A stretch of DNA of 47,595 nt from Planctomycetota bacterium (lineage in GTDB: Bacteria; Planctomycetota; B15-G4). The translations under genes and the position numbers were made by a program. This document shows positions 11,449 to 46,485 of the stretch, piece by piece (the first letter of the stretch is position 1; each line of letters begins with the position of its first letter). The stretch is from the NCBI GenBank assembly GCA_029259725.1, contig JAJDER010000016.1, forward strand, positions 1 to 47,595, written 5' to 3'. The notes beneath the pieces are model-generated. The model saw only the letters and a program-made list of their open reading frames with translations. It had not been told where the DNA came from and did no database searches.

Positions 11449-11517
11449 ATGACGTTTGACACGAGCGGGCCCGCGGGCTTCGCGGCCAGCAACGGACTGC
11501 GAGCGATGACACCATGA
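11449..11517 (+). pseudogene. 22-codon 3' remnant of a lost PKD/FG-GAP array gene
   Basis: The frame ATG(11449)-TGA(11515-11517) encodes 22 residues whose last 17 are SGPAGFAASNGLRAMTP. That is the exact style of ending of the full-length array proteins; the gene at 16660-18468 ends GPAGFTASNGLRAMTP. The DNA of the last 40 bases is nearly the same in both. Its stop overlaps the next ATG as ATGA, exactly as at the intact 18465-18468 junction. I infer that an entire array gene was deleted and only its tail and its overlap with the next gene remain. An AGGAGGT sequence at 11418-11424 precedes it, so the remnant might still be translated and deliver ribosomes to the gene at 11514. Confidence 0.7.
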
Positions 11518-16663: not shown

Positions 16664-18468
16664 GAGGCGCACGCGCCGCCGCCGTGCTGCTCGCGCTGGC
16701 CCTCCCGGCCGCCGCGCAGCTCGACGCGGACTTCACCGCCACGCCGCTGTCCGGCACCAACCCGCTGACCGTCACCCTCACCGACACGACCACCGGCGGC
16801 GAGGTGCACTTCTGGGACTGGAAATACGGCGACGGCAGCGGCTCCTTCGAGCAGCACCCCGTCCACGTCTTCACCCAGCCGGGTCCGCACACGGTCAGGC
16901 TGATGGTGTTCACCGCCGTCGGCTTCGACATCGAGCAGAAGCTGGACCTGATCGACGTGGACCCGGCGCCGCTCGTGCCCGGTTTCAGTGCCGACGTGAC
17001 CAGCGGGCCCATGGCGCTCAGCGTCTCCTTCACCGACACCACGACCGGCAGCGCCCCCACCGACTGGCTCGGCTCGGCCGTGGCGCTCGACGGAACGAGC
17101 GCGCTCGTTGGCGCGCCCCGGACCGACGGGAACGCCACGTCCACCGGCGCCGCCTACCTGTTCGACGTCGTAACTGGCGCGCCCGGCCCCGTGCTGACCC
17201 GCGCCGACGCCCAGGGCGGCGACTCGCTCGGCAAAGCCGTCGCGCTGGCCGGCGACCTCGCGCTGGTCGGCGCTCCGGTCGACGACTCGGCATCGCTCTT
17301 CGACGCCGTCACCGGGCAGGAACTCCACCGGCTGGCTCCGGTCTCGACCATGTCGGGTGTGGAGGTCGGAGCCTCCGTGGTCCTCGACGGCGACCGGGCG
17401 GTCGTCGGCGGCCCCGATCACCACCAGGCCGCGCGCGGGGCCGTCCACGTCTTCGACGTCGCCACCGGCGCGCAGCTGGACCGCCTGCTCGATCCCGAGG
17501 GCGCCCCCGGCGACGGCTTCGGCCGGTCGCTCGCCGCCGACGACGGCCTGCTCGTCGTGGGTGCGCCTGATGACGACGACCAGGGCGCGAACTCCGGCTC
17601 GGCCTCGCTCTTCGACCTCGCGACGGGGACCTGGTTGATGCGGCTGCTGCCCGCGGACGGCGCGCCGTACGACTACTTCGGGGGCGCCGTCGCGATCGAC
17701 GACGGGCTCGTCGTGGTCGGTGCGCCCGGGTACGATGACGGCGCGGACAGCACCGGCGCGGTGTACGTCTTCGACGCCGCAACGGGCGAGCAGCTCGACA
17801 AGCTCTCCCTGGGCCCGGCCAACGCCCTGCACTTCCTGGGCTGGGACGTGGCGCTCGCCGGCACGACGCTGTTGGCCTCGTCCACCACCTACATGCACCA
17901 GCCGAGCGGGAGCCGTGCCGTGCTGTTCGACATCGTGTCGGGCCAGCACCTCGCGACGCTGCGCTCCTCCGACCTCGCGCCGCACCACTTCTTCGCGTCG
18001 AGCGTGGCCCTCTCGGAGGAGCACGCCGTGATCGGCGCGGTGCGCGCGGACGGCGCCGTGCCCGAGTCCGGTGCCGCCTACGTGTTCGATGCCGCCATCG
18101 GCACCTGGACCGATCTCGGGGACGCCCTGCCGGGCTCGGCCGGCGCGCCGATCCTGTCCGGCGGCGGACCGCTGCTGGGCGGCTGCGCGGTCGAGCTGCT
18201 GCTCGAGCATGCGGCGGCCGACGCACCGGTCCTGCTCGTGGTCGGCTTCGGAGCACTCGGACTGCCACTGCAGGGCGGCGTGCTCGTGCCCACGCCGGAC
18301 CTGCTCGTTGCGCTCGGCACCGACGGGAACGGCGCGCTGCTCCTCGTCGAGACCTGGCCGCACCACCTGCCGGGCGGCGCGTCGCTTTGGTTCCAGGCCT
18401 GGATCGTAGACGCCGCCGGCCCGGCGGGATTCACGGCCAGCAACGGATTGCGAGCGATGACACCATGA
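16660..18468 (+). CDS. Shortened PKD/FG-GAP propeller protein with an internal PKD-propeller junction
   Basis: The protein has 602 residues, with a GTG start in a GTGA overlap. Signal peptide: AAAVLLALALPAAAQ. Only one full PKD domain is present (about 20-105). The second begins normally (FSADVTSGPMALSVSFTD) but at the codon for Trp (17065-17067, in TTTGSAPTDW) it runs straight into a blade (LGSAVALDGTSALVGAP). Compared with the neighbours, about 70 residues from mid-PKD to mid-blade are missing, along with two whole PKD domains. The reading frame is kept. The rest is ordinary: blades to about residue 480, and the module ending GFTASNGLRAMTP. I infer an in-frame deletion; whether the protein folds is uncertain. 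Confidence 0.85.
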   Translation: MRGARAAAVLLALALPAAAQLDADFTATPLSGTNPLTVTLTDTTTGGEVHFWDWKYGDGSGSFEQHPVHVFTQPGPHTVRLMVFTAVGFDIEQKLDLIDVDPAPLVPGFSADVTSGPMALSVSFTDTTTGSAPTDWLGSAVALDGTSALVGAPRTDGNATSTGAAYLFDVVTGAPGPVLTRADAQGGDSLGKAVALAGDLALVGAPVDDSASLFDAVTGQELHRLAPVSTMSGVEVGASVVLDGDRAVVGGPDHHQAARGAVHVFDVATGAQLDRLLDPEGAPGDGFGRSLAADDGLLVVGAPDDDDQGANSGSASLFDLATGTWLMRLLPADGAPYDYFGGAVAIDDGLVVVGAPGYDDGADSTGAVYVFDAATGEQLDKLSLGPANALHFLGWDVALAGTTLLASSTTYMHQPSGSRAVLFDIVSGQHLATLRSSDLAPHHFFASSVALSEEHAVIGAVRADGAVPESGAAYVFDAAIGTWTDLGDALPGSAGAPILSGGGPLLGGCAVELLLEHAAADAPVLLVVGFGALGLPLQGGVLVPTPDLLVALGTDGNGALLLVETWPHHLPGGASLWFQAWIVDAAGPAGFTASNGLRAMTP

Positions 18469-20534
18469 GACTCTCGGCACCGAAGCCGCTGAAGGCGCTG
18501 CTCGCCGTGGCCTTGCTGGCCCTCGCGGTCACCGCACCGACCGCCCCACCCCTCGCCGCCGGGCCCGTCTCCGACACCGATGACCTGGTGGTCGACTTCG
18601 CCGCCGACACGACCTCCGGCATCAACCCGGTCACGGTCTCCTTCACCAACCTCACCACCGGCGGCCCACCCACCGTCTTGTTCTGGCACTTCGGCGACGG
18701 CGTCACGTCGACGGTCGAGAACCCGACGCACACCTACACGACGCCCGGTCTCTACACGGTCTCGCTCACGGCGTACCTCGGCCTGGAGATCGCGTCCATC
18801 GACAAGGTCGACCTCATCCTGGTGGAGCCGGCGACGTTCGTTCCGGACTTCACGGCCACGCCGACCGCCGGGCCCGCCCCCCTGACCGTCACGTTCACCG
18901 GGACGACCGAGGGCGCCGAGCCCGACTGGTGGGACTGGGACTTCGCCGGCTCTCCCGGCTTCGTCAACGGCCCCGTGGCGGAGCACACCTTCGTCGAGCC
19001 CGGGGTCTACGCGGCGACCCTCACCACGGGCTTCGGCGGCCAGACGGCGTCCGTGACCAAGACGTCGTTCATCACCGTCGGCGAGTTCCCCGTCTGCGTG
19101 GCCAAGCAGAAGTGGCTGGCGGCCGACGCCGTCGCGGGCGATCACTTCGGCGCAAGCGTCGCCATCGAGGGGGACCTGGCCGTGGTCGGGGCGCCGAGCT
19201 GGTTCCCGAGCATCAAGGGGTTCGCCGAGGTCTTCGAGGTCACGACCGGGGAACGGATCGTGACGCTGGCGGCTCCAGGAGAACTCAGCAACGACGAGTT
19301 CGGGCAGAGCGTGGACCTCGACGGCGACCTGATCGCGGTCGGGGCCATGCTCTCCAACGAGGTCCACCTCTTCGACGTGCAAGGCACCCACCTGGCGACC
19401 ATCGAGGGGCCGTCCCCCGGGTTGTTCGGGCACGCGATCGCGCTCGACGGCAGCCGGCTCGTGGTCGGCGCGCGCAACGACTCCGAGCTCGGCGAGCTCG
19501 CCGGCGCCGCCTACGTGTATGACGTCGGCGACCCCACCGAGCCGGTGCTGATCGACAAGCTCCTGGCCGAGGACGGGAAGGCCTACGACGTCTTCGGCCA
19601 CGACGTCGCGATCTCGGGCGATCGAATCCTGATCGGCGCCTTCGGGCACCTGAACGACGCCCCCAGCGCGGCCTACCTGTTCGAGCTGCCGGAGGTTGGC
19701 CCACCGCTGCCGGCCGGCAAGCTGCAACTTCTCGGTGGCAACGCCTACGACCAGTTCGGCATGACGGTCGCTCTGTCGGGCGACCTCGCCCTCGTCGGCG
19801 CTCCCTTCGCCTCAGGGTCCTTCGGGGGCGGCATCGTGGCGGTGTTCGACGTCGCCACCGGCGGGCAGATCGCGATCCTCGCTCCGCCCGACCTCCCCGG
19901 CGCGTCGGACTTCGGGAGCAGCCTCGCCTTCGACGGGACGACCGTGCTCGTCGGAGCGCCCTACGGCAACGAGGCCTTCCACTTCGACCTCTCCGATCCG
20001 ACGGCGCCCGAGCTGGTCGTGCGCCTCGTGCCGCAGGACCCCGGGTCGAACGACGAATTCGGCATGTCGGCAGCCTTCGACGGGGAGACCGCCATCATCG
20101 GAGCGTGGGAGCACGACGACGGCGGCGTCAACGCGGGCGCGGCCTACGTCTTCTCGCTCGGGCTCGGCACGTGGACGGACCTGGGGCAGGGTCTTGCCGG
20201 TGCCGCCGGCGTTCCGACCCTGTCGGGCACGGGCACGCTCACCGGAGCGTGCACCCTGAACCTGCTGCTGACCGGAGCGGCCGAGACGGCGCCGACGTTC
20301 CTGGTCGTGGGCTTCACGGAGCTGTCGACGCCGTTGCTGGGAGGCGTGCTGGTGCCGTCCCCCGACCTCGTCGTGCCCGGCCTCACCGACAGCTCGGGCG
20401 ACGTGCTGCTCGGCGCGACACTCCCCAACGGTCTCCCTGCCGGCACGTCGTTGATCCTCCAGCACTGGATCGTGGACGCCGACGGCCCGGCGGGCTTCGC
20501 GGCCAGCAACGGACTGCGGGCGACGACGCCGTGA
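18465..20534 (+). CDS. Exported two-PKD, FG-GAP propeller protein with shared C-terminal module
   Basis: The protein has 689 residues when started at the ATG in the ATGA overlap (18465). The frame is open 78 bases further up, but only the ATG gives the signal peptide (KALLAVALLALAVTAPTAPPLAAG). There are two PKD domains (about 38-205). The second is degenerate: WDWDFAGSPGFVNGP replaces the FGDG motif. Blades follow (DHFGASVAIEGDLAVVGAP, DEFGQSVDLDGDLIAVGA, DVFGHDVAISGDRILIGA, DQFGMTVALSGDLALVGAP). The module starts TWTDLGQGLAGAAGVPTLSG and ends GFAASNGLRATTP. The stop overlaps the next start as GTGA. Confidence 0.88.
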   Translation: MRLSAPKPLKALLAVALLALAVTAPTAPPLAAGPVSDTDDLVVDFAADTTSGINPVTVSFTNLTTGGPPTVLFWHFGDGVTSTVENPTHTYTTPGLYTVSLTAYLGLEIASIDKVDLILVEPATFVPDFTATPTAGPAPLTVTFTGTTEGAEPDWWDWDFAGSPGFVNGPVAEHTFVEPGVYAATLTTGFGGQTASVTKTSFITVGEFPVCVAKQKWLAADAVAGDHFGASVAIEGDLAVVGAPSWFPSIKGFAEVFEVTTGERIVTLAAPGELSNDEFGQSVDLDGDLIAVGAMLSNEVHLFDVQGTHLATIEGPSPGLFGHAIALDGSRLVVGARNDSELGELAGAAYVYDVGDPTEPVLIDKLLAEDGKAYDVFGHDVAISGDRILIGAFGHLNDAPSAAYLFELPEVGPPLPAGKLQLLGGNAYDQFGMTVALSGDLALVGAPFASGSFGGGIVAVFDVATGGQIAILAPPDLPGASDFGSSLAFDGTTVLVGAPYGNEAFHFDLSDPTAPELVVRLVPQDPGSNDEFGMSAAFDGETAIIGAWEHDDGGVNAGAAYVFSLGLGTWTDLGQGLAGAAGVPTLSGTGTLTGACTLNLLLTGAAETAPTFLVVGFTELSTPLLGGVLVPSPDLVVPGLTDSSGDVLLGATLPNGLPAGTSLILQHWIVDADGPAGFAASNGLRATTP

Positions 20535-21682
20535 GCATGGACCCGACGCCCCGCCTGCTGGCCACGCTCGTCATCGGAGTCATCCTGGCCGGCGGACTCC
20601 CCGCCCGCGAAGCGCCGATGCGGCTTCCGCCCGCCGTCGGCGTTCCCCTCACTTTCACGCTCACCGACGTGGTCCTCCCCGCCGCCCCGCGTCAGGTCGC
20701 GGCCTTCGATGTCGACGGCGACGGCGCCCCCGAACTCGTCGTGCTCGGCAGTCCGGTCGCGGAACTCGAGGGCCAGGTCACGGTGCTCGACAACGACGGC
20801 CAGGGCGGCTTCTCGATCGGCTGGACCACGGCGCACCCCGGTACCGAGTTCGCCTTCGCCCCGATGTGGATGGACCAGGCCGACGTGGACCTCGACGGCG
20901 ACCTCGACCTGTCGATCACACCGGCTGCCGACGATCACTCGATCCGCCTCAACGACGGGCTGGGGACGCTGTCGGCATTCCTCCACGGCACCTGGTTCGG
21001 CGGCTTCGCAGGCGCCGGCTCCTTCGTGGAGGTCGATGGTGACGGCCTGCCCGACCTGGCGCACTTCACCGACGACCGCGGCCCGTTCCTCGACGCAGGC
21101 CTGGGCCAGGGAGACGGCCGCTTCGTCGGGTTCGCCGCGTGGATCGCGCCGCCCTACGACCAAACGATGATCGTGCACTTCGCCGACCTCGATGAAGACG
21201 GTGACAACGAACCCGTCGTGTCGTCGATCCAGGGCCTGCACACCTCGCACGACTTCGGAGTCTGGACCGAGCTGCTCGACGGCGCGTTCGAGAGTCTGCG
21301 GGTGCTCGACCTCGACGACGACCGGCACCTCGACCTCGTCTTCACCGATCCCGAGAACGATCGCCTCGGCGTGCTGCTCGGCGACGGGAGCGGGGCCTTC
21401 GGTCCGCCGATCTGGTTCGAGACCGGACGCGAGCCGACGCTGCTGGTCCTGGCCGACATGGACGGCGACGGCCAGCTCGACGCGATCACCAGCAACGCCG
21501 ACGCCGGGTCGATCTCGATCCTGCGGGGCAACGGCGCGGGAAGCTTCGGGACGAAGCAGGACGTCGCCACCGGCCCCGATCCGCTGGGACTGGCGGCCGC
21601 GGACTTCGACCTCGACGGCGACACCGACCTGGCCGTGGCCGACACGGGCGCCACGACGATCACGGTGCTGTTGCAGCAGTGA
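20531..21682 (+). CDS. Exported VCBS-repeat propeller protein (copy 3 of 3)
   Basis: I start at the GTG (20531), which overlaps the previous stop as GTGA like the neighbouring junctions. This gives 383 residues, equal to copy 2. An ATG two codons later (20537) is an alternative. Signal peptide: LLATLVIGVILAGGLPA. The opening PLTFTLTDVVLPAAPRQVAA and motifs DVDGDGAPELVVLG, DVDLDGDLDLSIT, DMDGDGQLDAITSN and DFDLDGDTDLAVAD follow the same plan as copies 1 and 2. It ends TGATTITVLLQQ and has no C-terminal module. The copies at 7301 and 20531 share more of the central text (for example WFGG, DHSIRLN) than either shares with 10176. Confidence 0.85.
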   Translation: MSMDPTPRLLATLVIGVILAGGLPAREAPMRLPPAVGVPLTFTLTDVVLPAAPRQVAAFDVDGDGAPELVVLGSPVAELEGQVTVLDNDGQGGFSIGWTTAHPGTEFAFAPMWMDQADVDLDGDLDLSITPAADDHSIRLNDGLGTLSAFLHGTWFGGFAGAGSFVEVDGDGLPDLAHFTDDRGPFLDAGLGQGDGRFVGFAAWIAPPYDQTMIVHFADLDEDGDNEPVVSSIQGLHTSHDFGVWTELLDGAFESLRVLDLDDDRHLDLVFTDPENDRLGVLLGDGSGAFGPPIWFETGREPTLLVLADMDGDGQLDAITSNADAGSISILRGNGAGSFGTKQDVATGPDPLGLAAADFDLDGDTDLAVADTGATTITVLLQQ

Positions 21683-21815
21683 CGGGGCAGCCGTCGCACG
21701 TCGGTCTCGCGCCCCTTCGTCATGAGTCACTGGCCGCCACCACCGAGCCGCCGTACGCTGGTGACGGGGAATCGGGAGCACGCCGTCCACGTCGCTCCCA
21801 CCCGGGAGAGGCGCC

Positions 21816-24419
21816 ATGCCGTCGTTCCGTCGTCTTGCTGCGCATGCACTCCTGCTCGGTCTCCTGACCTGCGCCGCCGCGGCGCAGTTGCAGCCCGACT
21901 TCACCGCCGCGCCGCTCTCGGGCAGCAGTCCGCTCACCGTGTCGTTCACCGACGCGACGACGGGCGCGACCACGCAGCTCTACCACTCCTGGAACTTCGG
22001 TGACGGCGGATTCTCCTCGTCGCCGGACACGACCCACACCTACACGGCGCCCGGTACCTACACCGTCACCCTGTCGGTGCTCTCCGGCTTCACGCTGTAC
22101 TCGGTCACCAAGGTCGACCTGATCGAAGTCGGTCCCACCGAGCTGGTGCCCGACTTCACCGCCACGCCGACGACGGGCATCAACCCGCTGACGGTGGCGT
22201 TCGCCGACGCCTCGACCGGCGCCCAGGCCACGAACTGGAGCTGGTTGTTCGGCGCGCAAGGCGGCTATGCCTCCGGCGAGCCCACGGCAACGCACACCTA
22301 CACGGCGCCGGGGACCTACAGCGTCACCTTCACCGCGTTCGTCGGCCCGGAAGGCAAGTCGATCACCAAGACCGACCTGATCGAAGTCACCCCCGCCCTG
22401 TTGACGCCCGGCTTCACCGCGACACCGACGGGCGGCATCAACCCCGTCACCGTCTCCTTCACCAACACGACGACGGGCCCCGCCGAGCCGACCGCCTGGA
22501 AGTGGGTCTTCGGCGACGGCTCGCTCTCCTCCGCCGAACAGCACCCGACGCACGTCTACACGCTGCCCGGGGACCACGACGTGACGCTGACGGCCTGGGT
22601 CGGCCAGCAACCCATCCAGCTCACCGCGCTCGATCTGGTGCACGTGGAGCCGGCGCCGCTGTTCCCCGACTTCAGCGCGGATGTGTTGGCGGGCGCCATG
22701 CCGCTCACCGTCTCGTTCACCGATCTCACGACGGGCACCGCTCCGACCGGGTGGAGCTGGAACTTCGGCGACAGCAGCAGCTCGTCCGAGCAGGACCCCG
22801 TGCACACCTTCCACGTGCCGGGCACCTACGACATCCGGCTGACCGCGAAGTTCGGGGCGCAGACCGCGTCCCTCACGCTCCCCGACCTGATCACCGTGGT
22901 CGTCCCGCCGACCTGCGAGGCGACGGACAAGCTGCTCGCTGCGAGCGGCACGGGCCTTTCGTCCTTCTTCCACTCGGTGGTGATCGAGGGCCAGACCGCG
23001 CTGATCAGCAAGTTGCTCGACGAATTCGCCGGCCTCGAGAACGTGGGTGCGATCTCGGTCGTCGATCTCGCCACCGGCACCGAGCGGCTCGAGCTCGTCC
23101 CGGATACGCCCGAGCTCGGCGGGATCGGCGGCGCCATGGACATCGACGGAAACCTGGCCCTGGTCGCCTCGACCGGCAACGACACGCTCGGCCCCGGCCT
23201 GGGCGCGGCCTTCCTCTTCGACCTGACCACCGGCGCGCAACTCGGCACGCTGCTCCCCTCGGGCGACCCGCTGTACAGCTGGTACGGCAACGCCGTCGCG
23301 CTCGACGGAGACCTGGCCCTGGTCGGCGCCCGCTTCGACGACGCGGCCGGCTACCAGCACGGCGCGGTCTACCTGTACGACGTGAGCGACCCGACCCAAC
23401 CCCTGCTGATCACCAAGTTCCTGGGCGAGGGCCTCGGCATCTCGGAGGGCTTCGGGACCTCGATCGCGCTGTATGAGGACACGGCCCTGATCGGACAGGT
23501 CCCCTTCGGCTGGCTGGCCAAGTCGGTCCCGGGCCGCGCCTTCCTCTTCGACGTCAGCGATCCGAGCCAGCCCGCGCACATCGCCACGCTGCATGCCGGC
23601 GGCGGCTACTCGAACGAGTACTTCGGCCAGTGGCTCGCGCTCGGCAAGAAGCACGCCGTGATCGGCTCGCCGTTCGACAACGAGGGCACCGCCGCGGGCT
23701 CCGTCTACGTCTTCGACGCGAACACGGGCGCCACGCTCGGCCGGCTGCTCCCGCTCGACGATGTGATCGGCAAGGCCTTCGGGACGGCGGTGGCGCTCGA
23801 CGGGAAGACCCTCGTGGTCGGGGATAGCGACGACGACGCCGCGGGCTCGTCGTCGGGGGCGGCCTACGTCTTCGACGTCGAGAGCCTGACTCAGCTCGCG
23901 CGCTTCACCGCAAGCGACGCGACGGCCAACATGCTCTTCGGTGCCGACGTCGCGATCGGCGGCGGCAGGATCCTCGTCACCACCCCGTTCGACGACGAGC
24001 TCGGGGAAGACTCCGGCGCGTCCTACCTGATCGACGTGCCCGCCGGGACCTCCTGGACGGACCTCGGGCAGGCGCTCCCGGGCGGCGCCGGCCCGCCGGC
24101 GCTCACCGCCGCGGGGGCGGTGTTCCCTCCGTGCACGGTGCAGTTCACCCTCACGAACGCGGTGCCCTCGGCGCCGGTGTTCCTCGTCGCCGGCTTCAAC
24201 GCGATCGACGCCCCGTTCAAGGGCGGCGTGCTGTTGCCGTCGCCGGACGTGGTCGTCGCGGGCCTCGGCACCGACGTCGTCGGCCGCCTGTTCCTCGTCG
24301 AGAGCCTGCCCGCCGGCTTCCCGCCCGGTCTGCCGCTCGTCTTCCAGGCCTGGATCGTGGACGCCGCGGGCCCCTCGGGCTTCTCGGCCAGCAACGGACT
24401 GAGCGCCACGACGCCGTGA
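21816..24419 (+). CDS. Exported four-PKD, FG-GAP propeller protein with shared C-terminal module
   Basis: The protein has 867 residues. It is separated from the preceding gene by 133 bp with a TACGCT hexamer at 21754-21759, and so may have its own promoter. A GGGAGAGG sequence lies just before the ATG. Signal peptide: LLLGLLTCAAAAQ. There are four PKD domains: in the second the FGDG motif has become LFGAQGG, and in the fourth FGDSSSSSEQ. Propeller blades follow (NAVALDGDLALVGARFDD, FGTAVALDGKTLVVGDSDDD). The module starts SWTDLGQALPGGAGPPALTA and ends GFSASNGLSATTP. It is the last member of the array; an inverted repeat just after the stop may terminate transcription. Confidence 0.88.
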   Translation: MPSFRRLAAHALLLGLLTCAAAAQLQPDFTAAPLSGSSPLTVSFTDATTGATTQLYHSWNFGDGGFSSSPDTTHTYTAPGTYTVTLSVLSGFTLYSVTKVDLIEVGPTELVPDFTATPTTGINPLTVAFADASTGAQATNWSWLFGAQGGYASGEPTATHTYTAPGTYSVTFTAFVGPEGKSITKTDLIEVTPALLTPGFTATPTGGINPVTVSFTNTTTGPAEPTAWKWVFGDGSLSSAEQHPTHVYTLPGDHDVTLTAWVGQQPIQLTALDLVHVEPAPLFPDFSADVLAGAMPLTVSFTDLTTGTAPTGWSWNFGDSSSSSEQDPVHTFHVPGTYDIRLTAKFGAQTASLTLPDLITVVVPPTCEATDKLLAASGTGLSSFFHSVVIEGQTALISKLLDEFAGLENVGAISVVDLATGTERLELVPDTPELGGIGGAMDIDGNLALVASTGNDTLGPGLGAAFLFDLTTGAQLGTLLPSGDPLYSWYGNAVALDGDLALVGARFDDAAGYQHGAVYLYDVSDPTQPLLITKFLGEGLGISEGFGTSIALYEDTALIGQVPFGWLAKSVPGRAFLFDVSDPSQPAHIATLHAGGGYSNEYFGQWLALGKKHAVIGSPFDNEGTAAGSVYVFDANTGATLGRLLPLDDVIGKAFGTAVALDGKTLVVGDSDDDAAGSSSGAAYVFDVESLTQLARFTASDATANMLFGADVAIGGGRILVTTPFDDELGEDSGASYLIDVPAGTSWTDLGQALPGGAGPPALTAAGAVFPPCTVQFTLTNAVPSAPVFLVAGFNAIDAPFKGGVLLPSPDVVVAGLGTDVVGRLFLVESLPAGFPPGLPLVFQAWIVDAAGPSGFSASNGLSATTP

Positions 24420-36313: not shown

Positions 36314-37783
36314 TCACGCCAGCACCGCCCGCACCACCTCCCCGTGCACGTCCGTGATGCGGAAGTGCCGCCCCTGGTACTTGAACACCAGACGCTCGTG
36401 GTCGATCCCGAGCAGGTGCAGCAGCGTCGCGTTGAGATCGTGCACGTGGACCGGATCGGCGACGATGTTGTAGCCGAACGCGTCGGTCTCCCCGTAGGTG
36501 AAGCCGGGCTTCACGCCCGCGCCGGCCATCCACATGGTGAAACAACGCGGGTGGTGGTCGCGGCCGTAGTCGGTCGCGCTGAGCGGGCCCTGCGAGTAGT
36601 TGGTGCGGCCGAACTCACCGCCCCAGACGACCAGCGTGTCGTCCAGCAGCCCCCGGCGCTCCAGGTCCAGGACGAGCGCCGCGCTGGCCCGGTCCGTCTC
36701 ACGGCACTGCACGCGCAGTCCGTTGGGCAGGTCACCGTGCTGGTCCCAGCCCTTGTGGAAGAGCTGCACGAAGCGCACGTCGCGCTCCAGCAGCCGGCGC
36801 GCGAGCAGGCAGTTGGCCGCGTAGGTGCCGGGGTCGCGGGCGTCCTCGCCGTAGAGCCGGAACGTCTCGTCGGGTTCGTCCGAGAGATCGGTGACCTCGG
36901 GGATCGAGCGCTGCATGCGCCAGGCCAGCTCGGCGTGCACCCGACGCGTTTCGATCTCGGGGTCGCCCGTGCGTTGCAGCTGCAGCTCGTGCAACCGGTC
37001 GAGGGCGTCGAGGGAGCTACGCCGCAGGGCACGGGAGACGCCGGCGGGATCGGAGAGGAAGAGCACCGGGTCGGCGCCGGCCCGGAGCTGCACGCCCTGG
37101 TGGCTGGACGGCAGGAACCCGGCGCCCCAAAGCCGCGCGTAGAGCGGCTGGCCGCCCTTGTTCTTCGTGACCAGCACGCAGAAGTCGGGCAGGTCCGGGT
37201 TGAGGCTGCCGAGCCCGTGACTCAGCCACGCCCCCAGCGACGGCCGCCCCGCGATCTGCGACCCGGTGGTGAAGAAGGTGATCGCCGGGTCGTGGTTGAT
37301 GGCCTCGGTGTGCATCGAGCGGATGAAGCAGAGCTTGTCGACCATGCGCGCCGTGTTCGGCAGTAGCTCCGAGACCCAGGCGCCGCACTCGCCGTGCCGC
37401 TCGAAGTCGAACTGCGCCCCGGCGAGCGGCAACACGGACTGGTTGCCGGACATGCCCGTCAGGCGCTGCCCCTGCCGCACGCTGTCGGGCAGCTCGGTCC
37501 CGTTGCGCTCCTGCAGCAGCGGCTTGTGATCGAACAGGTCGATCTGCGAGGGCCCGCCGCTCTGGAACAGCGAGACGATGCGCTTCACGCGCGGCTGCAC
37601 GTGCGGCCCGGTGAGCACGCCGTTCCACCCCACGACTCGGGGCGCGTCCGGGGCGCCCACGAGAGGCAACAGCGATCCCGCCCACGTGGAGCCTCCGAGG
37701 GCGCCCCCCACCGCGGCCGCGGCGCCGGCGAGGAAGCCGCGGCGGCTCATCGGCAGGCGTCCGTGCTCGCTCGACCCGGTCAT
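36314..37783 (-). CDS. Tat-exported DUF1501 protein
   Basis: The protein has 489 residues from the ATG at 37783, which overlaps the upstream stop as ATGA. The frame is open 54 bases further up, but the overlap start gives the better N-terminus. A Tat signal is present: MSRRGFLAGAAAAVGGALGG (S-R-R-G-F-L). The body has the DUF1501 landmarks SLFQSGGPSQIDLFDHKP, CFIRSMHTEAINHDPA, LFHKGWDQHGDLPNGL, WGGEFGRTNYSQG, GRDHHPRCFTMWMAGAGVKPG, and a C-terminus with HVHDLNATLLHLLGIDHERLVFKYQGRHFRITDVHG. These proteins belong to the alkaline-phosphatase/sulfatase-like superfamily. In planctomycetes they almost always pair with PSCyt1/PSD1 proteins, as here. The reaction is not established. Confidence 0.92.
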   Translation of the reverse strand: MTGSSEHGRLPMSRRGFLAGAAAAVGGALGGSTWAGSLLPLVGAPDAPRVVGWNGVLTGPHVQPRVKRIVSLFQSGGPSQIDLFDHKPLLQERNGTELPDSVRQGQRLTGMSGNQSVLPLAGAQFDFERHGECGAWVSELLPNTARMVDKLCFIRSMHTEAINHDPAITFFTTGSQIAGRPSLGAWLSHGLGSLNPDLPDFCVLVTKNKGGQPLYARLWGAGFLPSSHQGVQLRAGADPVLFLSDPAGVSRALRRSSLDALDRLHELQLQRTGDPEIETRRVHAELAWRMQRSIPEVTDLSDEPDETFRLYGEDARDPGTYAANCLLARRLLERDVRFVQLFHKGWDQHGDLPNGLRVQCRETDRASAALVLDLERRGLLDDTLVVWGGEFGRTNYSQGPLSATDYGRDHHPRCFTMWMAGAGVKPGFTYGETDAFGYNIVADPVHVHDLNATLLHLLGIDHERLVFKYQGRHFRITDVHGEVVRAVLA

Positions 37784-40700
37784 CGCAGCGTCACCGCACC
37801 GTCGTACGACAGCAACACCTGGGCGACGACCGCCCACGCGGCGACCTCGACGGCGTCCTGGTCGTCCCGCTCGTCCCGCTCGAGAGCTGGCGCGGCGGCG
37901 CCCACGGCGAGCAACGCGCGGGCCTCGTCGGGAGCGGCCGTGAAGTCACCGCGGGCCGCCTCCAGGAGCTGCAGCAGGACGTCGCGTTCGTCAGCCGCGG
38001 GCCGACGACTCGTCACCAGGCGGAACGCGGTCTCGAGTCGCGACGCGTCGGAACCCCCGGCGAGACCCCGGACGCGCTCAGCGAGCACGCGCGCCGCCTC
38101 GACGAGTTGCGGGTCGTTCCAGAGCGCCAGGGCCTGGAGCGGCGAGCTCGTGGACTCGCGCCGCGCGACGCACACGTCCCGCTTGGCTGCGTCGAAGAGC
38201 ATCATGGACGGCGGCGGTGAGGTGCGCTTCCAGAACGTGTACAGGCTCCGCCGCCACAGGCCCTCGCCCGCGTCGGGCGTGTACACCAGGCCGCTCTTCT
38301 CCTCCCAGAGGCCCGGCGGCTGGTACGGTTTCACCGGAGGCCCGCCGAGGCGCTCGACGAGCAGCCCGCTCACGAACAACGCCTGATCCCGGATCATCTC
38401 GGCCGAGAGGCGGCGACGCGGCCCGTGTGCGAACAGCCGGTTCCCGGCGTTGCTGCCGGAGGGATCCACGACCGGGCCCGAGGACTGCCGGTAGGTCGAC
38501 GAGAGCACCAGCCGTTTCATCAGCGCCTTCACCGACCAGTCGTCTCCGCGCAGTTGCCGCGCGAGGTGATCGAGCAACTCGGCGTGCACCGGCGGGACGC
38601 CCTGGCTGCCGAAGTTCTCGGCCGTCGTGACCAGGCCCTCACCGAAAGCGAGGCGCCAGAAACGGTTGACGGCCACGCGCGCGAAGAGCGGGTTCTCCGG
38701 CGCGCTCAACCAGCGCGCGAGCCCCAGCCGATCGGGCTCGAGGTCCGCGGGGAACGGAGCCACCTCCGCCGGCGTGCCCGGCTCGACGCGCTCGGCCGGC
38801 GACAGGTACGAGCCCCGCTCCAGCCGGTACGTCGGCCGGGGCGTGTCGAGCTCGGACATGGTCATGATCTCGCGCAGACCGTCCATGAACCCGGAGAGCT
38901 CCGCGCGCGCCTCGCGCAGCGCGGCGCGGTGCTCGATCACGTTGCCGTCCGTCGTCTCGACCAGGTGGTCCCGGGCGGCCTCCGGCGAGGACAACAGGTC
39001 TCCGAGGGACGCGCCCGTCGCGAGATGGCGGATCTCGGCCGCGCCGAGTTCCCGGGCGAAGACGCGCAGCTCGTCCACGCGTCCGCCCGCGAGACCGACG
39101 TCGCGGAAGCGCTGCCCCAGCGTCAGGGTGGAGTCGGCAGCGACGATCGTGCGCGTCAGGTTGTCGCGGACCGTGCGCGTCTCGGCGCGCTCACCGTCGA
39201 TGTGCAGGCCCAGGCCCGCCGCGCGCGACGATCCGTCGTAGGTGACGGCGAGGTGCACCCAACGCCCCGTGGGCAGCGGCGCCAGCGTGCGGACCCGTAT
39301 CGCGTTGCCAGGCCAGAAGTGGATCAACGCCGCGGAGAGAGCGCCCTGCTCGATGAGCAGTTCATACCCGCGGCTGCCGGAGTCGGTCCAGGCGCGCGAG
39401 CGGTGCAGGACCACGGCGCGCTCCTTGGTGTCCGGGACAAGGAGCCACAGCGCGAGCGTGAAGGGGTCGTCCCGCGTGAACGCCCCGACGCCGGGGAAGT
39501 GGGCGTTGTTCTCGCCGTCGAGGAGCAGGCCGAGACCCGCGTGCCCCTGCGCGAGCTCGGCGAGGCCGCTCACCGCGCCGGGGTGCTCGGCGTCGGCGGC
39601 GTTGCCCAGCTTGCCGTCTTCGAGCGATTCGAAGTCGAACGCGCCGGTGCGATCCGCCGAGACTTCGGCTCCCTCCAACGCGTGGACTCCGGCTGAGTCA
39701 GCGCTGGCGCCCACGGTGGCGCCCGCGCCCGCGTCGGCGTCGGCGTCGGCCGGCGTGTCGGCGGCGGCGCGGCCGGCCGCCCGAGCGCGCTCGAGCGCTT
39801 CGCTTGCCGCGTCGACCCGCGCTCTGAGTGCCACGAGTTCCCGCTGCTCGTCCTCACTGGCCAGCAACAGCGTCGGCGTGGGCACGGCGTCGGTGAAGTG
39901 CGAGTAGAGACCACTCTCGTCGATGTTGTCGAAGAAGGCCGCCAGCCCGTAATACTCCGATTGCCGGATCGGATCGTACTTGTGGTCGTGACAGCGCGCG
40001 CACTCGAGGGTCAAGCCCAGGAAGGCCGTGCCGAAGGTGTGGACGCGGTCGGCGACGTACTCGACGCGATACTCCTCCTCCACACTCCCGCCCTCGTTCG
40101 TCTGGCGGTGCAGGCGGTTGAACGTCGTGGCCAGCCGCTGCTCGCGCGTCGCCTCGGGCAGCAGGTCCCCGGCGAGCTGCCAGGTGGCGAAGCGATCCCA
40201 GCCGAGATCCCGGTTGAACGCGTCGATGACCCAGTCGCGCCAGGGCCAGACGTCGCGGCCCACGTCGTTCTGGTAGCCGTAGCTGTCCGCGTAGCGCGCG
40301 GCGTCGAGCCAGTCGGAGGCCATCCGCTCGCCGTAGCGCGGCGAGGCGAGCAGGCGGTCGACCACTCGCTCATGAGCACCTTCGGACTCATCCGCGAGGA
40401 AGGCGTCGAGTTCTTCCAGGGTCGGCGGCAGGCCCGTGAGGTCGAAGCTGACGCGCCGGAGCCACGTCTCGCGGGACGCTTCGGGCGTCGGCTCGAGCCC
40501 CTCGGACTCGAGACGCGCGAGCACGAAGCCGTCGAAATCGTCGCGCGGCCAGCTCTCGCGGTGCACGGGCGGCACCTCGGGACGTCCCACGGGCTCGAAC
40601 GCCCAGTGCTTCGCGTATCGAGCGCCCTCGGCGATCCAGCGCTGCAGCGTCTCGATCTCGACCACCGAGAGCGAGAGCTTGGAGTCGACCGGCGGCATGC

Positions 40701-41025
40701 GCTCCCGCTCGAGCCCATGGCTCACGCGATGCAACAGCTCGCTCTCCTCGGGACTCCCGGGCACGATCGCCGCGTAGCCACCCAGGTCCGCGGTGGCGCC
40801 CTCGAAACTGTCGAGGCGCAGGTCACTCTGTCGCGCGAGCGCGTCGGGGCCGTGGCAGATGAAGCACCGGTCGGACAGGATCGGGCGGACATCGCGGACG
40901 AAGTCGACCGGCGCCACGCCCCGCCCGACGTTCGGCACCGCCGCGGCCGCGTCGGCCGGATGCCGCGCGAGCCACGGCGCCCCGGCGAGCACGGCGCAGA
41001 TCAGGAAGAGGGCCGGCCGCAACAT
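37780..41025 (-). CDS. PSCyt1-DUF1549-LamG-DUF1553 (PSD1) cytochrome-like protein
   Basis: The protein has 1081 residues when started at the ATG at 41025, which gives the signal peptide MLRPALFLICAVLAGAPWLA. The 20 residues upstream in frame do not. Planctomycete cytochrome C domain: CFICHG with C54, C57 and H58 as the heme site, closing RMPPVDSKLSLSVVEIETLQRWI. DUF1549 (about 145-360) includes SFDLTGLPPTLEELDAFL and ADSYGYQNDVGRDVWPWRDWVI, with a second CxxCH (CARCHDHK). A LamG/concanavalin-like insert follows at about 480-690 (DDPFTLALWLLVPDTKERAVV, GRWVHLAVTYDG). DUF1553 fills the C-terminus (NPLFARVAVNRFWRLAFGEGLV, LSSTYRQSS, RRLSAEMIRDQAL). The linker before LamG is an Ala/Asp-rich repeat (ADTPADADADAGAGA). 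A periplasmic electron-transfer role is commonly supposed; the substrate is unknown. Confidence 0.93.
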   Translation of the reverse strand: MLRPALFLICAVLAGAPWLARHPADAAAAVPNVGRGVAPVDFVRDVRPILSDRCFICHGPDALARQSDLRLDSFEGATADLGGYAAIVPGSPEESELLHRVSHGLERERMPPVDSKLSLSVVEIETLQRWIAEGARYAKHWAFEPVGRPEVPPVHRESWPRDDFDGFVLARLESEGLEPTPEASRETWLRRVSFDLTGLPPTLEELDAFLADESEGAHERVVDRLLASPRYGERMASDWLDAARYADSYGYQNDVGRDVWPWRDWVIDAFNRDLGWDRFATWQLAGDLLPEATREQRLATTFNRLHRQTNEGGSVEEEYRVEYVADRVHTFGTAFLGLTLECARCHDHKYDPIRQSEYYGLAAFFDNIDESGLYSHFTDAVPTPTLLLASEDEQRELVALRARVDAASEALERARAAGRAAADTPADADADAGAGATVGASADSAGVHALEGAEVSADRTGAFDFESLEDGKLGNAADAEHPGAVSGLAELAQGHAGLGLLLDGENNAHFPGVGAFTRDDPFTLALWLLVPDTKERAVVLHRSRAWTDSGSRGYELLIEQGALSAALIHFWPGNAIRVRTLAPLPTGRWVHLAVTYDGSSRAAGLGLHIDGERAETRTVRDNLTRTIVAADSTLTLGQRFRDVGLAGGRVDELRVFARELGAAEIRHLATGASLGDLLSSPEAARDHLVETTDGNVIEHRAALREARAELSGFMDGLREIMTMSELDTPRPTYRLERGSYLSPAERVEPGTPAEVAPFPADLEPDRLGLARWLSAPENPLFARVAVNRFWRLAFGEGLVTTAENFGSQGVPPVHAELLDHLARQLRGDDWSVKALMKRLVLSSTYRQSSGPVVDPSGSNAGNRLFAHGPRRRLSAEMIRDQALFVSGLLVERLGGPPVKPYQPPGLWEEKSGLVYTPDAGEGLWRRSLYTFWKRTSPPPSMMLFDAAKRDVCVARRESTSSPLQALALWNDPQLVEAARVLAERVRGLAGGSDASRLETAFRLVTSRRPAADERDVLLQLLEAARGDFTAAPDEARALLAVGAAAPALERDERDDQDAVEVAAWAVVAQVLLSYDGAVTLR

Positions 41026-41081
41026 GGCGCCAGGATACTCCGCACCGCCGACAGACGCCCACGCCCGGTCGGGCGCCTCCG

Positions 41082-44000
41082 TCACGGCGGGTCCAGGTAC
41101 CCCTTCTCGATCAGCCGCGCCTGCAACGCCTCGGGCGAGGCTCCCCGAGCCGCCTCCAACCAGCGGCCCGTGAACGGGGTCGCGCGCTCGCGCTGCGCCT
41201 CGACGTCGTCGCCCAGGTGGGCGAGGTCCCGGCGCACGGTGTCGAGGTCGACGCGCCCCTTGTAGATGGCCCCGACCGAACCGTCCGCATCGATCAGGAA
41301 GCTGGTGGGCAGGGGCAGCGGGCGACGGTTCAGGAACACCGTGTCGTGGTAGGTCTGCAACACGCCGATGATGCGCTCGTCGGCCATGCCCACGGGCAGG
41401 TCGAGGCCTCGCGAGTCGATGAACGCGCGCGCGGCCTCGGCGCCGTCCACCGCACCTGCGCCTCCCGCGCCGCCCTCACCGAGGCCGTCGACGCTCAGCG
41501 CCAGCACGGGAAAGTCCGCCCGCGCGAGGTCCGCGAGTTCGGCCCGGCACGGCACGCACCAGCTGGCCCAGAGATTCAGCAGGAAGGGCTCGCGCGACTG
41601 CGCACCCGACTGCGCACCCGACTCCGCGCCCGCTCCCACGACGTGCACCTCACCCGCGAGATCCCGGTACTGCATGCGCGGCAACGCCGCGGCCGAGCCC
41701 GGGATCAATCGCATCGCCTGGGTCGACGGCGCGATCACCGGCTCCGTCGGCCTGAAGTCGCGCGTGCGATCGGGCGGCGTCCACGCAGTCGGTACGCGGC
41801 CCTCGCCCTGCTCGAGCTCGAAGAAGTGACCCGCCTGGATGTCGCCGTAGACCTGCCGCGCACCGTCGGGCCAACGCACCTCGAGCGACTCGATCTCACC
41901 GGTCGCGCCCAGGCCGAAGTGCACCCACTTGCTGGACTGGGAGAGGAAGCCCTCGGCTGCCCTCAGCGTGCGGATCAGCTCGACGCCGTCGCCGTCACCG
42001 TCACCGTCACCGTCGCGGGCGACACCCTGCATGCGCAGCGTGAGACGCGCGCCGATGGCGTCGCGATTGCTGCTCGTCCCGTTGCCCGTGAGCCGGAAGG
42101 CGACGAATCGGTTGCCGGACTCGAGGTCATTGCGCAGGAAGCGCAGGCGTGGCGCGGTGCGATTGCTGATCCACAGGTCCACGTCGCCGTCGAAGTCCCA
42201 GTCGGTGGCGGCCAGGCCGCGGCCGTCGTCGGGGAAGTCCAGCCCGCTCCCGGCCGAGACGTTGGCGAAGTCGGCACCACCGGTGTTCAGGTAGACGCAA
42301 TGGCGCTCGCGCCCGCTCAGCGACATCCCGGCCAGCAGCCTCTCGTTCAGCTCGATCACCGCGTCGGCGTAGCGCTCCAGCGTCTCGCGCTCCCCGGCCT
42401 GCTCGACGGTCGCGGGAGATTGCGACAGGACCTGTCGCCAGAGGAAACTTCACAAGTCCCGCGAGTCCTCGTTCGTCAGGTTGCCGTTGGCGACGACGAG
42501 GTCCTGCAGCCGATCGTTGTCGAGGTCGACGAAGAGGCTGCTCCACGCCCAGCGACCCATGGTGACACCGGCGTCCACGCTCACGTCCTCGAACCCACCC
42601 GTGCCCGCGTTGCGGAACAGGGAGTTGCCGCGGGCATGCCGCTGGAACGCGGCGCGCTGGGTCCCGTCGGCGAGCGGGTTGAAGTTGCGCTGGTAGGTGA
42701 TGCGATTGCCGGCGGACGAGAACATGTTGCTGACGTAGAGGTCCATCCAGCCGTCGAGATCCGCGTCGCCGAAGGTGACCGACATGCCGGCCGAGATGTC
42801 TTCGACCCCGGCCTCGGGAGCCACGTCGCGAAAATGCCCGCCCTCGTTGAGGAACAGGTTGTTGCGGCCGTAGTCGTTGGCCACGTAGAGGTCCTGGTCC
42901 CCGTCGTTGTCGATGTCCTCCCAGGCCGCCGCGAAGCTGAAGCGCGTCCCGTTCTGATCCAGGCCGACGCTGTTGGTGATGTCGCGGAAGGCCCAGCCCC
43001 CGTCGTTGCGCCAGAGGATGTTGCGCGGACCGTTGTTCGCGTCGTGGTAGGGAATCGCCGCCTCGTTCGACGAGTAGCAGACGAACAGGTCGAGGTCGCC
43101 GTCCCGGTCGTGGTCCGCCGCCGCCATCGACGTCGGGATCGCCGGGCCGGGCAGGAGCATGCGCCCCTCGAAGTGGCCGGCGCCGTCGTTCTCGAGCAGC
43201 ATGGTCGGCGTCGAACCGAGCACCAGGTCCTGGTCACCGTCGTCGTCGAGATCCAGGAACAGCGCGCTCATGGTCGAGTCCATCCAGTCCACGCCGGACT
43301 CCGCCGCGCGCTCGTCGAAGCTGCCGTCGAGGTTCTGCACGTAGAGCTGGTTGGGGATCCCGCCGGAGTTGCAGAGATACACATCGTCGAGTCGATCGCC
43401 GTTGACGTCTCCGACGGCGAGCCCGTGGTAGCCCAGGGGGCTCTGCCCGAGATGGGCCGGAATCCGGACGTACCAGTGCGGCAGCCCGCGGCCGAGCAGG
43501 GCGTCGTCGGTCAGGGAGCGCTTCAACACGGCTTCGGTGCAGTCCGAGAAGAGCCGGCGCCCCGACGTCATCCGCGTCCGCTCGAGGGCCTCGGCGGTCA
43601 GCGCCAGCAGGCGCGGCACGGGCTCGCGGGTCCACGACGTGATCCAGGTCGCGTGCTCCTCCTCGGGCCCGTCGACGCCCGTGCCGGACACGGACACGAG
43701 CTGGTGCGTGCGGATCGTCTCGCCGACGTCCTCGAACCGCACGACCTTGAACTCCGCCCGCACGTCGGCCCCCTGGGCGAAGGGCCGGCGCCATGTCTGC
43801 AGCGCCTCGAGGAAACCCGCGCTGCCGCGGTACACGCTCCCCGCCGGCGGCGTGCTGGCACCGGGAAGCCCACGGTCGATGCGGACCGGCGGCTCGTCGC
43901 GGACGAGTTCCCAGTGCTCCGGCCGGATCGGCCCGGCCTCGAAGCTGTCGGCCGAGAGCGCCGCCAGCACGCCGGGGGCGACGCTCGCCGGGTCGCTCAT

Positions 44001-44267
44001 CCAGCGCTGGACCTGCTTCCACTGCGAGGCGACGGCGTCGCTGAGGACCTCGCTGTCCCAGCCGTCCAGGCCCGGGTCGTCGAAGGGCGTCGCCGCGGTG
44101 GGTATCGAGTCGAGCACCGTCGATGTCGCGATCAGGTCTTCGGCGAGTCGCGCCCGATCGCGCCACAGCGCGACCATCGCCGCGATCACCAGGCCGGCGA
44201 CTCCAGCCATCACGAGGACGCGGTAGCCTCCGCGACCTCTCTCGCCGTCTCGTCGGTTCGCGCGCAT
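41082..44267 (-). CDS. CRTAC1-UnbV-thioredoxin fusion read through an in-frame TGA: candidate selenoprotein
   Basis: This is one gene of 1062 codons counting the stop, start ATG 44267, with a single in-frame TGA at 42450-42452 (codon 606). Before it come a transmembrane anchor (VLVMAGVAGLVIAAMVALW, about 17-35), a domain of about 260 residues, and VCBS/FG-GAP blades (DVNGDRLDDVYL, DLDDDGDQDLVLGS, DHDRDGDLDLFV, DIDNDGDQDLYVAND, DADLDGWMDLYVSN). The reading frame then gives NGNLTNEDSRDL-TGA-SFLWRQVLSQSP and continues without a break. Next come one more blade (DWDFDGDVDLWISN), the ASPIC/UnbV domain (GARLTLRMQG ... LEVRWPDGARQVY) and a TlpA-like thioredoxin domain with WASWCVPCR. Protein similarity is continuous across the TGA, so a split into two genes is unlikely. 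A SECIS-like hairpin follows the TGA. Alternatives are a nonsense mutation or sequencing error. The gene follows the M23 peptidase gene by 8 bp. Confidence 0.75.
41596..41631. repeat. 12-bp tandem repeat in a linker of the CRTAC1-thioredoxin gene
   Basis: The unit gactgcgcaccc occurs twice exactly and a third time with changes. It encodes ESGAQSGAQS in the linker just before the thioredoxin domain. Such in-frame units can change copy number without breaking the gene. Confidence 0.75.
41985..42014. repeat. 6-bp tandem repeat (RCCGTC)5 encoding Asp-Gly pairs
   Basis: Five 6-bp units, two gccgtc and three accgtc, encode a run of Asp-Gly (DGDGDGDGDG) inside the UnbV domain of the CRTAC1-thioredoxin protein. 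It is probably an expanded loop. Confidence 0.8.
42422..42438 (-). promoter_or_regulatory. Candidate bacterial SECIS hairpin
   Basis: In the mRNA sense, the 30 nt after the UGA contain GCGACAG-GUC-CUGUCGC, a perfect 7-bp stem with a 3-nt loop. The loop starts at nucleotide 19 after the UGA, so 18 nt separate UGA and loop. The first loop base is G. The published bacterial SECIS model asks for a 3-14 nt loop with G in the first two positions, a 4-16 bp stem, and 16-37 nt between UGA and loop. All three conditions hold. The apex (CAGGUC) resembles that of the E. coli fdhF element. No bulged U is seen in the stem. Confidence 0.6.
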
Positions 44268-45699: not shown

Positions 45700-46485
45700 A
45701 TGACGGCTTCCGACTCGCTGCCGACGACGCCGGACACGCCCCGCTCGGGCGGCTTCGCCACCACGAGCTGGAGCCTCGTCGCCGTGGCCGGCGGCGACGA
45801 GACTCCGCAGAGCCGGCAAGCCCTCGAGACCCTGTGCCGCGCGTACTGGCGGCCGCTCCATGCCTACGTGCGGCGACGCGTCGCGGATGTGCACGAGGCC
45901 CAGGACCTCACCCAGGGATTCTTCACGCGCCTGCTCGAGCGCAACGACTTCGCGGCCGTGCGAGCGGACCGCGGGCGCTTTCGAGCGTGGCTGCTGACCG
46001 CGCTCAAGCATCACATGATCAACGAGGGGCACAAGGCCCGGGCCCAGAAGCGCGGCGGTGGGCGGGTCCCGCTGTCGCTCGACTTCGACGGGCACGACAG
46101 CGGCCTGCGCTGGGAGCCGGGCGACCCCACCACTCCCGAACAGGTCTACGAACGCGAGTGGGCCTCCACCGTCCTCGCCAGCGTGTTCGAGCACCTGCGG
46201 CGGGAGTCGCAGGGCCAACCTGACGGCGACTCCGACCGCGCCCGCCGCTTCGAACTCCTCACGCCGTTCCTCGCCGGCACCATGCCCCGGGGCGCCTACG
46301 CCGGCGCGGCCGAGCAACTCGGCATCTCGGAGGGCGCGGCGCGCATGGCCGTCCAACGCCTGCGCGAGCGCTACCGCGAACTCCTGCGCTCCGAGATCGC
46401 GCAGACCGTCCGCGATCCCGCCGAGGTCGACGACGAGATCGCGGCCCTGTTCGCCGCCGTCCGAGCTTCTCCGAGAATCCTGTGA
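45700..46485 (+). CDS. ECF-type RNA polymerase sigma factor
   Basis: The protein has 261 residues. The N-terminal FATTSWSLVAVAGGDE and LETLCRAYWRPLHAYVRRR are the hallmark of the large ECF group common in planctomycetes and acidobacteria. Sigma region 2 continues DVHEAQDLTQGFFTRLLERNDFAAV and GRFRAWLLTALKHHMINE. A long linker (about 115-185) follows. Region 4 includes GAYAGAAEQLGISEGAARMAVQRLRERYRELLRSEI, a helix-turn-helix for the -35 element. It directs core RNA polymerase to a regulon that cannot be told from the sequence. No anti-sigma factor gene is present. Instead a Ser/Thr kinase starts 56 bases later, a genomic link known for such ECF groups and suggesting control by phosphorylation. 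Confidence 0.92.
   Translation: MTASDSLPTTPDTPRSGGFATTSWSLVAVAGGDETPQSRQALETLCRAYWRPLHAYVRRRVADVHEAQDLTQGFFTRLLERNDFAAVRADRGRFRAWLLTALKHHMINEGHKARAQKRGGGRVPLSLDFDGHDSGLRWEPGDPTTPEQVYEREWASTVLASVFEHLRRESQGQPDGDSDRARRFELLTPFLAGTMPRGAYAGAAEQLGISEGAARMAVQRLRERYRELLRSEIAQTVRDPAEVDDEIAALFAAVRASPRIL

Follow-up and report, generated by a model that had tools for sequence, protein, structure and literature searches.

An in-frame UGA in CRTAC1-like β-propeller proteins of Planctomycetota and other bacteria is probably decoded as selenocysteine

Introduction

Bacterial selenoproteins that depend on a bSECIS element were catalogued in PMC13188914 (2026), whose Table 1 comprises 119 families or subfamilies by its own count. 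The limits set out there for the element are a loop of 3–9 nt, a stem of 4–16 bp and a distance of 16–37 nt from the UGA, with a G among the first two loop positions and a minimum free energy of at most −7.5 kcal/mol. Section 10 of the same paper states that many bacterial selenoproteins are thought to derive from widespread cysteine homologues. Selenoproteins have also been reported in planctomycetes, with candidates in table S9 of PMC4807772.

Here we describe a gene in a 47,595-nt stretch of planctomycete DNA (the window, to which coordinates refer unless a locus or genome is named). The bSECIS selenoproteins of PMC13188914 and the present gene family have in common an in-frame UGA, a hairpin with G in its loop 16–37 nt downstream, the SelA, SelB and tRNA-Sec machinery and cysteine-containing homologues. 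We judge from comparative sequence data that the UGA, codon 606 of this gene, is very probably decoded as selenocysteine (Sec), with a probability of about 0.93.

A CRTAC1-like gene with a single in-frame UGA

The gene occupies 41082..44267 on the minus strand and was delineated by read-through translation, Pfam, an AlphaFold2 model and Foldseek. With the TGA kept open it has 1,062 codons, encoding 1,061 residues followed by a terminal TGA. An earlier, sequence-only reading of this DNA had described the frame 44267-41082 as open save for one TGA at codon 606, and a recount found this to be the sole internal TGA. The codon lies at 42450..42452 (minus strand), in a column at which homologues conserve TGA, and from it the sequence continues as TGAAGTTTCCTCTGGCGACAGGTCCTGTCGC. 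Coding sequence is conserved on both sides, as that reading had recognised: Ser607, Trp610, Arg611 and Val613, immediately after the UGA, are invariant in a 39-row alignment (A4). The start codon is a choice, as the frame stays open upstream to a GTG at 45764; the ATG at 44267 fits a predicted N-terminal helix at residues 15–48, where model confidence is low.

Immediately downstream, with a 4-nt overlap, Pfam identifies a PSCyt1/PSCyt2/PSD1 protein carrying a planctomycete cytochrome c domain (37780..41085, minus strand). Of 80 named loci, one has a PSCyt homologue close to the selenoprotein gene, and none has a homologue of the M23 gene or of the gene next to it, with flanks of at most 6 kb; given this conservation, we draw no functional link to the neighbours. 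Elsewhere in the window, a gene run at 11514-24419 encodes FG-GAP_2 and PKD-domain proteins, its first three genes overlapping by 4 nt, and at 220-2013 on the minus strand lies the gene for another FG-GAP/UnbV_ASPIC protein, shorter at 597 residues and free of internal stops.

Conservation of the UGA among homologues

The protein was matched in 46 of 58 genomes, its own included, and the eight best full-length relatives (42–63% identity) contain exactly one in-frame TGA apiece. A stop stands at the position of UGA 606 in 23 of the 30 loci fetched, and all 23 are TGA. Searching the phylum with a 23-row alignment of the UGA-bearing stretches gave matches in 110 of 294 genomes (E 1e-10); the stops inside them, among the matches listed, are likewise all TGA. 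From these, 20 of the 22 listed stop-free matches and 60 TGA-bearing ones were then sampled, and a named set was formed from the best 80 of 181 relatives. At the Sec column a core model counted 223 sites from 220 loci, namely 199 TGA, 7 TGC (6 different genes) and 17 other codons (one, ACC in L149, a mis-hit on another repeat), proportions that are biased because rows were picked by UGA-bearing models and that count some loci twice (L034 = L123; L027 = L116; SelA coordinates place L187 and L188 within G005 and G002); what counts is the bare absence of TAA and TAG, neither of which occurs among the 223 sites. Aligned across codon 606, the homologues combine a conserved TGA with Cys in a few, a pattern that the sequence-only reading had named in advance as support for selenocysteine.

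In the named set (best 80 of 181 relatives), TGA stands at 86 of 87 sites and TGC at one, in L213 from a Phycisphaerales bacterium; the column is invariant across alignment A4 save for Cys in the L213 row. Because one TGA-bearing named locus, L220, is a chromosome-level record, its UGA is not an assembly error. Another named locus, L264, is by its name probably from a single-cell genome. The record titles of the named loci span Planctomycetota, Verrucomicrobiota (Akkermansiaceae, Roseibacillus), Acidobacteriota, Terriglobia, Myxococcales, Proteobacteria and Lentisphaeria. Two loci, L204 and L234, are titled Akkermansia muciniphila isolate AH-24oct19-279 yet carry the family, and this label may be wrong.

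The family can be present in several copies. The genome under study has paralogues on contigs C32 and C52, each with a UGA within the motif and a CxxC domain, and the largest number of UGA-bearing matches in one genome, among the matches listed, is six (G152). Two Akkermansiaceae contigs (L239, L244) hold three UGA-bearing family genes in tandem within 12 kb. At L018:2521-2610 (G032:C78), two extra in-frame TGA codons follow 21 and 25 codons past the Sec codon and would reflect either further recoding or a broken frame.

Departures from UGA take two forms. In the cysteine gene L213, TGC replaces TGA (L213:6181-6183), all six stem pairs of the hairpin described below are retained and the genome has SelA, which looks like a recent Sec-to-Cys change; loss of the Sec system does not explain this cysteine, because SelA scores over its cut-off in that genome. 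At fifteen paralogue loci (L107–L121) the column is occupied by E, Q, A, N, H or R; most of these loci belong to genomes with SelA, and they show that Sec can apparently be dispensed with while the protein is kept.

Protein architecture and possible function

The protein consists of an FG-GAP β-propeller, a UnbV_ASPIC domain and a TlpA/ResA-like thioredoxin domain, in that order. Pfam assigns the first two with scores of 119.7 bits (FG-GAP, cut-off 26.9) and 59.8 bits (UnbV_ASPIC, PF07593, cut-off 23.4; residues 737–813, 41829..42059, minus strand), placing the protein among the CRTAC1/ASPIC-UnbV proteins. The thioredoxin domain (residues 893–999, 41271..41591, minus strand) was located by Pfam AhpC-TSA, at 20.5 bits and thus under the cut-off of 26, and by Foldseek matches to 4txo, 1jfu and 2f9s. 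The NCBIfam TlpA, ResA and DsbE models score far under their own cut-offs on this protein, and NCBIfam release 20 yields no match to it over a cut-off. A thioredoxin fold with a CxxC is nonetheless found by Foldseek and by alignment: Cys904 and Cys907 (41547..41558, minus strand) are both invariant in alignment A4, in which Pfam detects FG-GAP and UnbV_ASPIC in 39 of 39 rows and AhpC-TSA in 37. All 78 complete named downstream frames contain C-x-x-C, strictly as WC-x-x-C in 58 and in some other C-x-x-C form in 20. Sequence and a low-confidence model helix (15–48) further indicate a hydrophobic N-terminal helix at approximately residues 15–38 (44154..44225, minus strand), a probable membrane anchor, and the N terminus of the C32 paralogue resembles a lipoprotein signal.

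An AlphaFold2 model, built with Sec as Cys, has a mean pLDDT of 88.7. In it, residue 606 opens a helix (606–616) within a long insertion between propeller strands, whose motif is D-(L/T)-U-S-x-x-W-R. Foldseek matches the model to murine CRTAC1 (9etn; E 3.1e-25, target TM 0.68) as well as to TlpA and ResA, and the phmmer match to 9etn skips the Sec-bearing stretch, setting residues of about 523–671 against chain residues 347–364. The sequence-only reading had counted the thioredoxin fold as support for selenocysteine; the fold is there, but the argument fails in that Sec606 lies about 300 residues ahead of the CxxC at 904–907 and outside any thioredoxin (UxxC) motif.

We propose that the product is an extracytoplasmic, probably membrane-anchored CRTAC1-like propeller protein, a location suggested by its N-terminal helix, its lipoprotein-like paralogue and its TlpA/ResA kinship. 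The selenolate would carry out redox chemistry, and the CxxC further along the chain would reduce the oxidised Sec; the position of the two elements, their conservation and their co-occurrence point to these roles. We therefore favour an extracytoplasmic selenoenzyme in which the fused thioredoxin domain resets the Sec.

A possible, though rather doubtful, alternative is that Sec606, though inserted, binds metal or has a structural part to play, the thioredoxin domain then having a separate role. Asp-Asn-Gly repeats of the FG-GAP kind abound in the propeller, paralogues exist in which the column holds E, Q, N, A, H or R, and CRTAC1, the closest match by fold, is not an enzyme, going by its title, all of which would suit such a role. 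Against it, the CxxC is kept in every complete named frame, cysteine is the commonest single alternative at the column, and the model places Sec at a helix start. The broadest form of the selenoenzyme proposal stands at even odds in our estimate. It envisages a class of CRTAC1/integrin-like propeller selenoenzymes, mostly with Sec and in several copies per genome, in Planctomycetota, Verrucomicrobiota and neighbouring phyla, in which the propeller Sec and the fused TlpA-like domain would form a self-contained extracytoplasmic redox relay and which may be a main reason for which the Sec system is kept.

A covarying hairpin downstream of the UGA

A bacterial SECIS-type hairpin of 7 bp with the loop GUC lies at 42422..42438 on the minus strand, identified by fold energy, covariation and co-occurrence with the UGA. 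The stem-loop GCGACAG-GUC-CUGUCGC, reported by the sequence-only reading to begin its loop 18 nt past the UGA, matches exactly and is the minimum-energy fold of a 40-nt stretch (−10.6 kcal/mol). With a loop of 3 nt, a stem of 7 bp, G in first place and a spacing of 18 nt, it also falls, as had been claimed, within the published bSECIS limits. The further claim that such a hairpin is unlikely by chance does not hold for this single sequence: 18 of 200 dinucleotide shuffles fold equally well or better (z −1.43), which is not significant alone. The single hairpin is suggestive but weak evidence, and the comparison of homologues decides.

All 163 distinct UGA sites have the loop G, and 159 have a U after it, although the two bases are at the same time part of a conserved Val codon. 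In 145 of the 163, the Arg codon's third base forms a pair with base one of a codon further on (Ser, Ala, Thr or Pro), and six pair types occur. For covariation, 62 of these sites were hand-picked for spread; in them 96.2% of cells pair and 29 cells carry double changes, against 7.0 in shuffles. When the pairing partner is slid along the same 62 sites as a control, pairing falls to 17.5–70.7%. RNAalifold, unaided, predicts four inner pairs. A tree-based test of independent pairs points in the right direction but is underpowered, having too few independent pairs (18/28: 3.4 of 5 same, 0 opposite, p 0.25; 20/26: 1.8 of 3 same, 0 opposite).

The stem also tracks the UGA. Among sites with the WRx[VMI] motif, all six core pairs are present at 134 of 146 UGA sites versus 1 of 13 non-UGA sites; the full stem is absent from the other 12, three of which keep five pairs, and the lone exception is the cysteine gene L213. 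A family hairpin rule modelled on the published bSECIS limits, based on stem energy with a stem of at least 5 bp, is satisfied at −5 kcal/mol by 157 of 163 UGA sites; it is also satisfied by 8 of the 22 non-UGA sites and, elsewhere in these genes, by 643 of 3,256 codons. With the threshold at −7.5 kcal/mol the corresponding counts are 112 of 163, 6 of 22 and 298 of 3,256. Subfamilies lacking the WR motif (L029, L030, L174) have different hairpins with a spacing of 21, for example GAACGUC-GGUC-GACGUUC, and at four UGA sites (L150, L156, L157, L160) the rule finds no hairpin. Taken over the homologues, UGA and hairpin together give a signal far beyond chance, with a stem that covaries and follows the UGA.

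Selenocysteine machinery and the probable decoding of codon 606

The sequence-only reading had looked to the genome's own Sec machinery, and this expectation is borne out in part. SelB is encoded in the same genome (G000:C27; TIGR00475, 333.8 bits, cut-off 242.25), while neither a SelA match nor a tRNA-Sec was found in its assembly, which is 84.4% complete; a lack of the machinery was what that reading had listed as speaking against selenocysteine. Rfam gave 10 tRNA-Sec hits there (best 49.4 bits), of which ARAGORN types the top eight as tRNA-Ser (four), tRNA-Leu (two), tRNA-Tyr and tRNA-Gly. Each of the five other genomes in the organism's family has both SelA and tRNA-Sec, and the tRNA-Sec anticodon is UCA in all eight scanned sister loci that hold the gene. 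As to SelD, a probable Sec-type version was found in one sister genome, G005. There a block comprises recJ, selA, an AIR-synthase-type selD-like gene, folD and tRNA-Sec, and recJ, selA, folD and tRNA-Sec are also grouped in G002 and G001. An in-frame TGA flanked as NCAG-U-ASK precedes the selD-like frame of G005 (L286:4574-5566); this gene is thus itself probably a selenoprotein.

FolD and RecJ have no match in the assembly under study either, although the same searches detect FolD in 12 and RecJ in 13 of the 14 control genomes. Because these neighbours are absent too, the recJ-selA-folD-tRNA-Sec block is most likely missing from the assembly and not from the organism. Searching the assembly with the sister-block DNA recovered a TPR gene alone, which adjoins tRNA-Sec in the sisters; here it occupies G000:C116:34642-36084, and the contig runs on for 3.6 kb past it with no tRNA-Sec there, so the local order differs, and selA and tRNA-Sec may instead, less probably, have been lost.

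On a wider scale, a SelA match (E 1e-30) was obtained for 57 of the 63 genomes in which a UGA site is listed and for 135 of the 231 others (Fisher p 4e-7), the latter possibly including genomes with unlisted UGA sites. The six UGA genomes with no SelA match are all drafts, 67–91% complete. Each of the 11 genomes of named loci (two of which are, by their coordinates, G005 and G002 again) has a SelA match, ten of them scoring above the cut-off and the eleventh being a fragment at a contig edge. Among four genomes with the cysteine version, SelA is absent from G017, G178 and G232 and present in G086.

Conserved TGA, a covarying bSECIS-type hairpin, SelB here and SelA and tRNA-Sec in sister genomes together support the proposal, made originally from the single sequence, that codon 606 encodes selenocysteine. 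On meeting UGA 606 the ribosome would be supplied by SelB, bound with its Sec-tRNA to the downstream hairpin, and Sec would be inserted in place of termination.

Decoding of UGA 606 as another amino acid, either Cys through an opal tRNA-Cys or Trp through a recoded tRNA, is very improbable. UGA-reading tRNA-Cys is known elsewhere, and 7 of the 223 sites do have Cys, but these genes also use UGA for ordinary termination (TGA closes 37 of the 78 complete named frames), the in-frame UGA is bound to a covarying hairpin and to SelA, and the UCA-anticodon tRNAs in ten loci scanned are all typed as tRNA-Sec. That UGA 606 is a real stop, leaving a propeller and a re-initiated thioredoxin part or a decaying gene, is less credible still: SelA and tRNA-Sec escape detection in the assembly and a GTG-start ORF (42359-41082) exists inside the frame, but TAA and TAG occupy the column at none of the 223 sites, at least 369 further codons are open past the UGA in all 78 complete named frames, Ser607, Trp610, Arg611 and Val613 are invariant in the 39 rows, and the cysteine versions read through.

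Comparison with known selenoproteins and related folds

Decoding of selenocysteine at this UGA would follow the known bacterial mechanism, and the family is absent from the catalogue of PMC13188914 as far as its available text extends: the terms FG-GAP, VCBS, CRTAC, UnbV, propeller and Planctomyc do not occur there. The same family terms have no occurrence in the accessible texts of PMC12013277 and PMC9312934. We found no report of a CRTAC1, UnbV, FG-GAP or VCBS selenoprotein in the open literature, preprints aside, in the portions of it available; table S9 of PMC4807772 may hold one. Gene callers read UGA as a stop, and these proteins are therefore likely to be split in two in databases.

As far as seen, both the host fold and the domain combination are new to selenoproteins. 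Murine CRTAC1 (9etn) shares the FG-GAP propeller followed by UnbV_ASPIC, but the match covers neither the Sec-bearing stretch nor the thioredoxin domain. The TlpA/ResA oxidoreductases (4txo, 1jfu, 2f9s) resemble the C-terminal domain in fold and CxxC; here, by contrast, that domain is fused to a Sec-holding propeller, and its own CxxC consists of two cysteines and is Sec-free. A PF00578-like domain is common to this protein and to the Prx-like and Trx-like UxxC selenoproteins in Table 1 of PMC13188914, whereas Sec here precedes the thioredoxin domain by about 300 residues. Compared with the bSECIS selenoproteins of that paper more generally, Sec lies in a β-propeller insertion and not in a thioredoxin-like fold.

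A selenoprotein family with a propeller fold would widen the known selenoproteome of these bacteria, give a reason for their Sec machinery and suggest, for bacterial CRTAC1/UnbV proteins, a first biochemical role open to testing. Most of the sites seen have Sec and few have Cys, in contrast to the origin from cysteine homologues that PMC13188914 describes for many bacterial selenoproteins.
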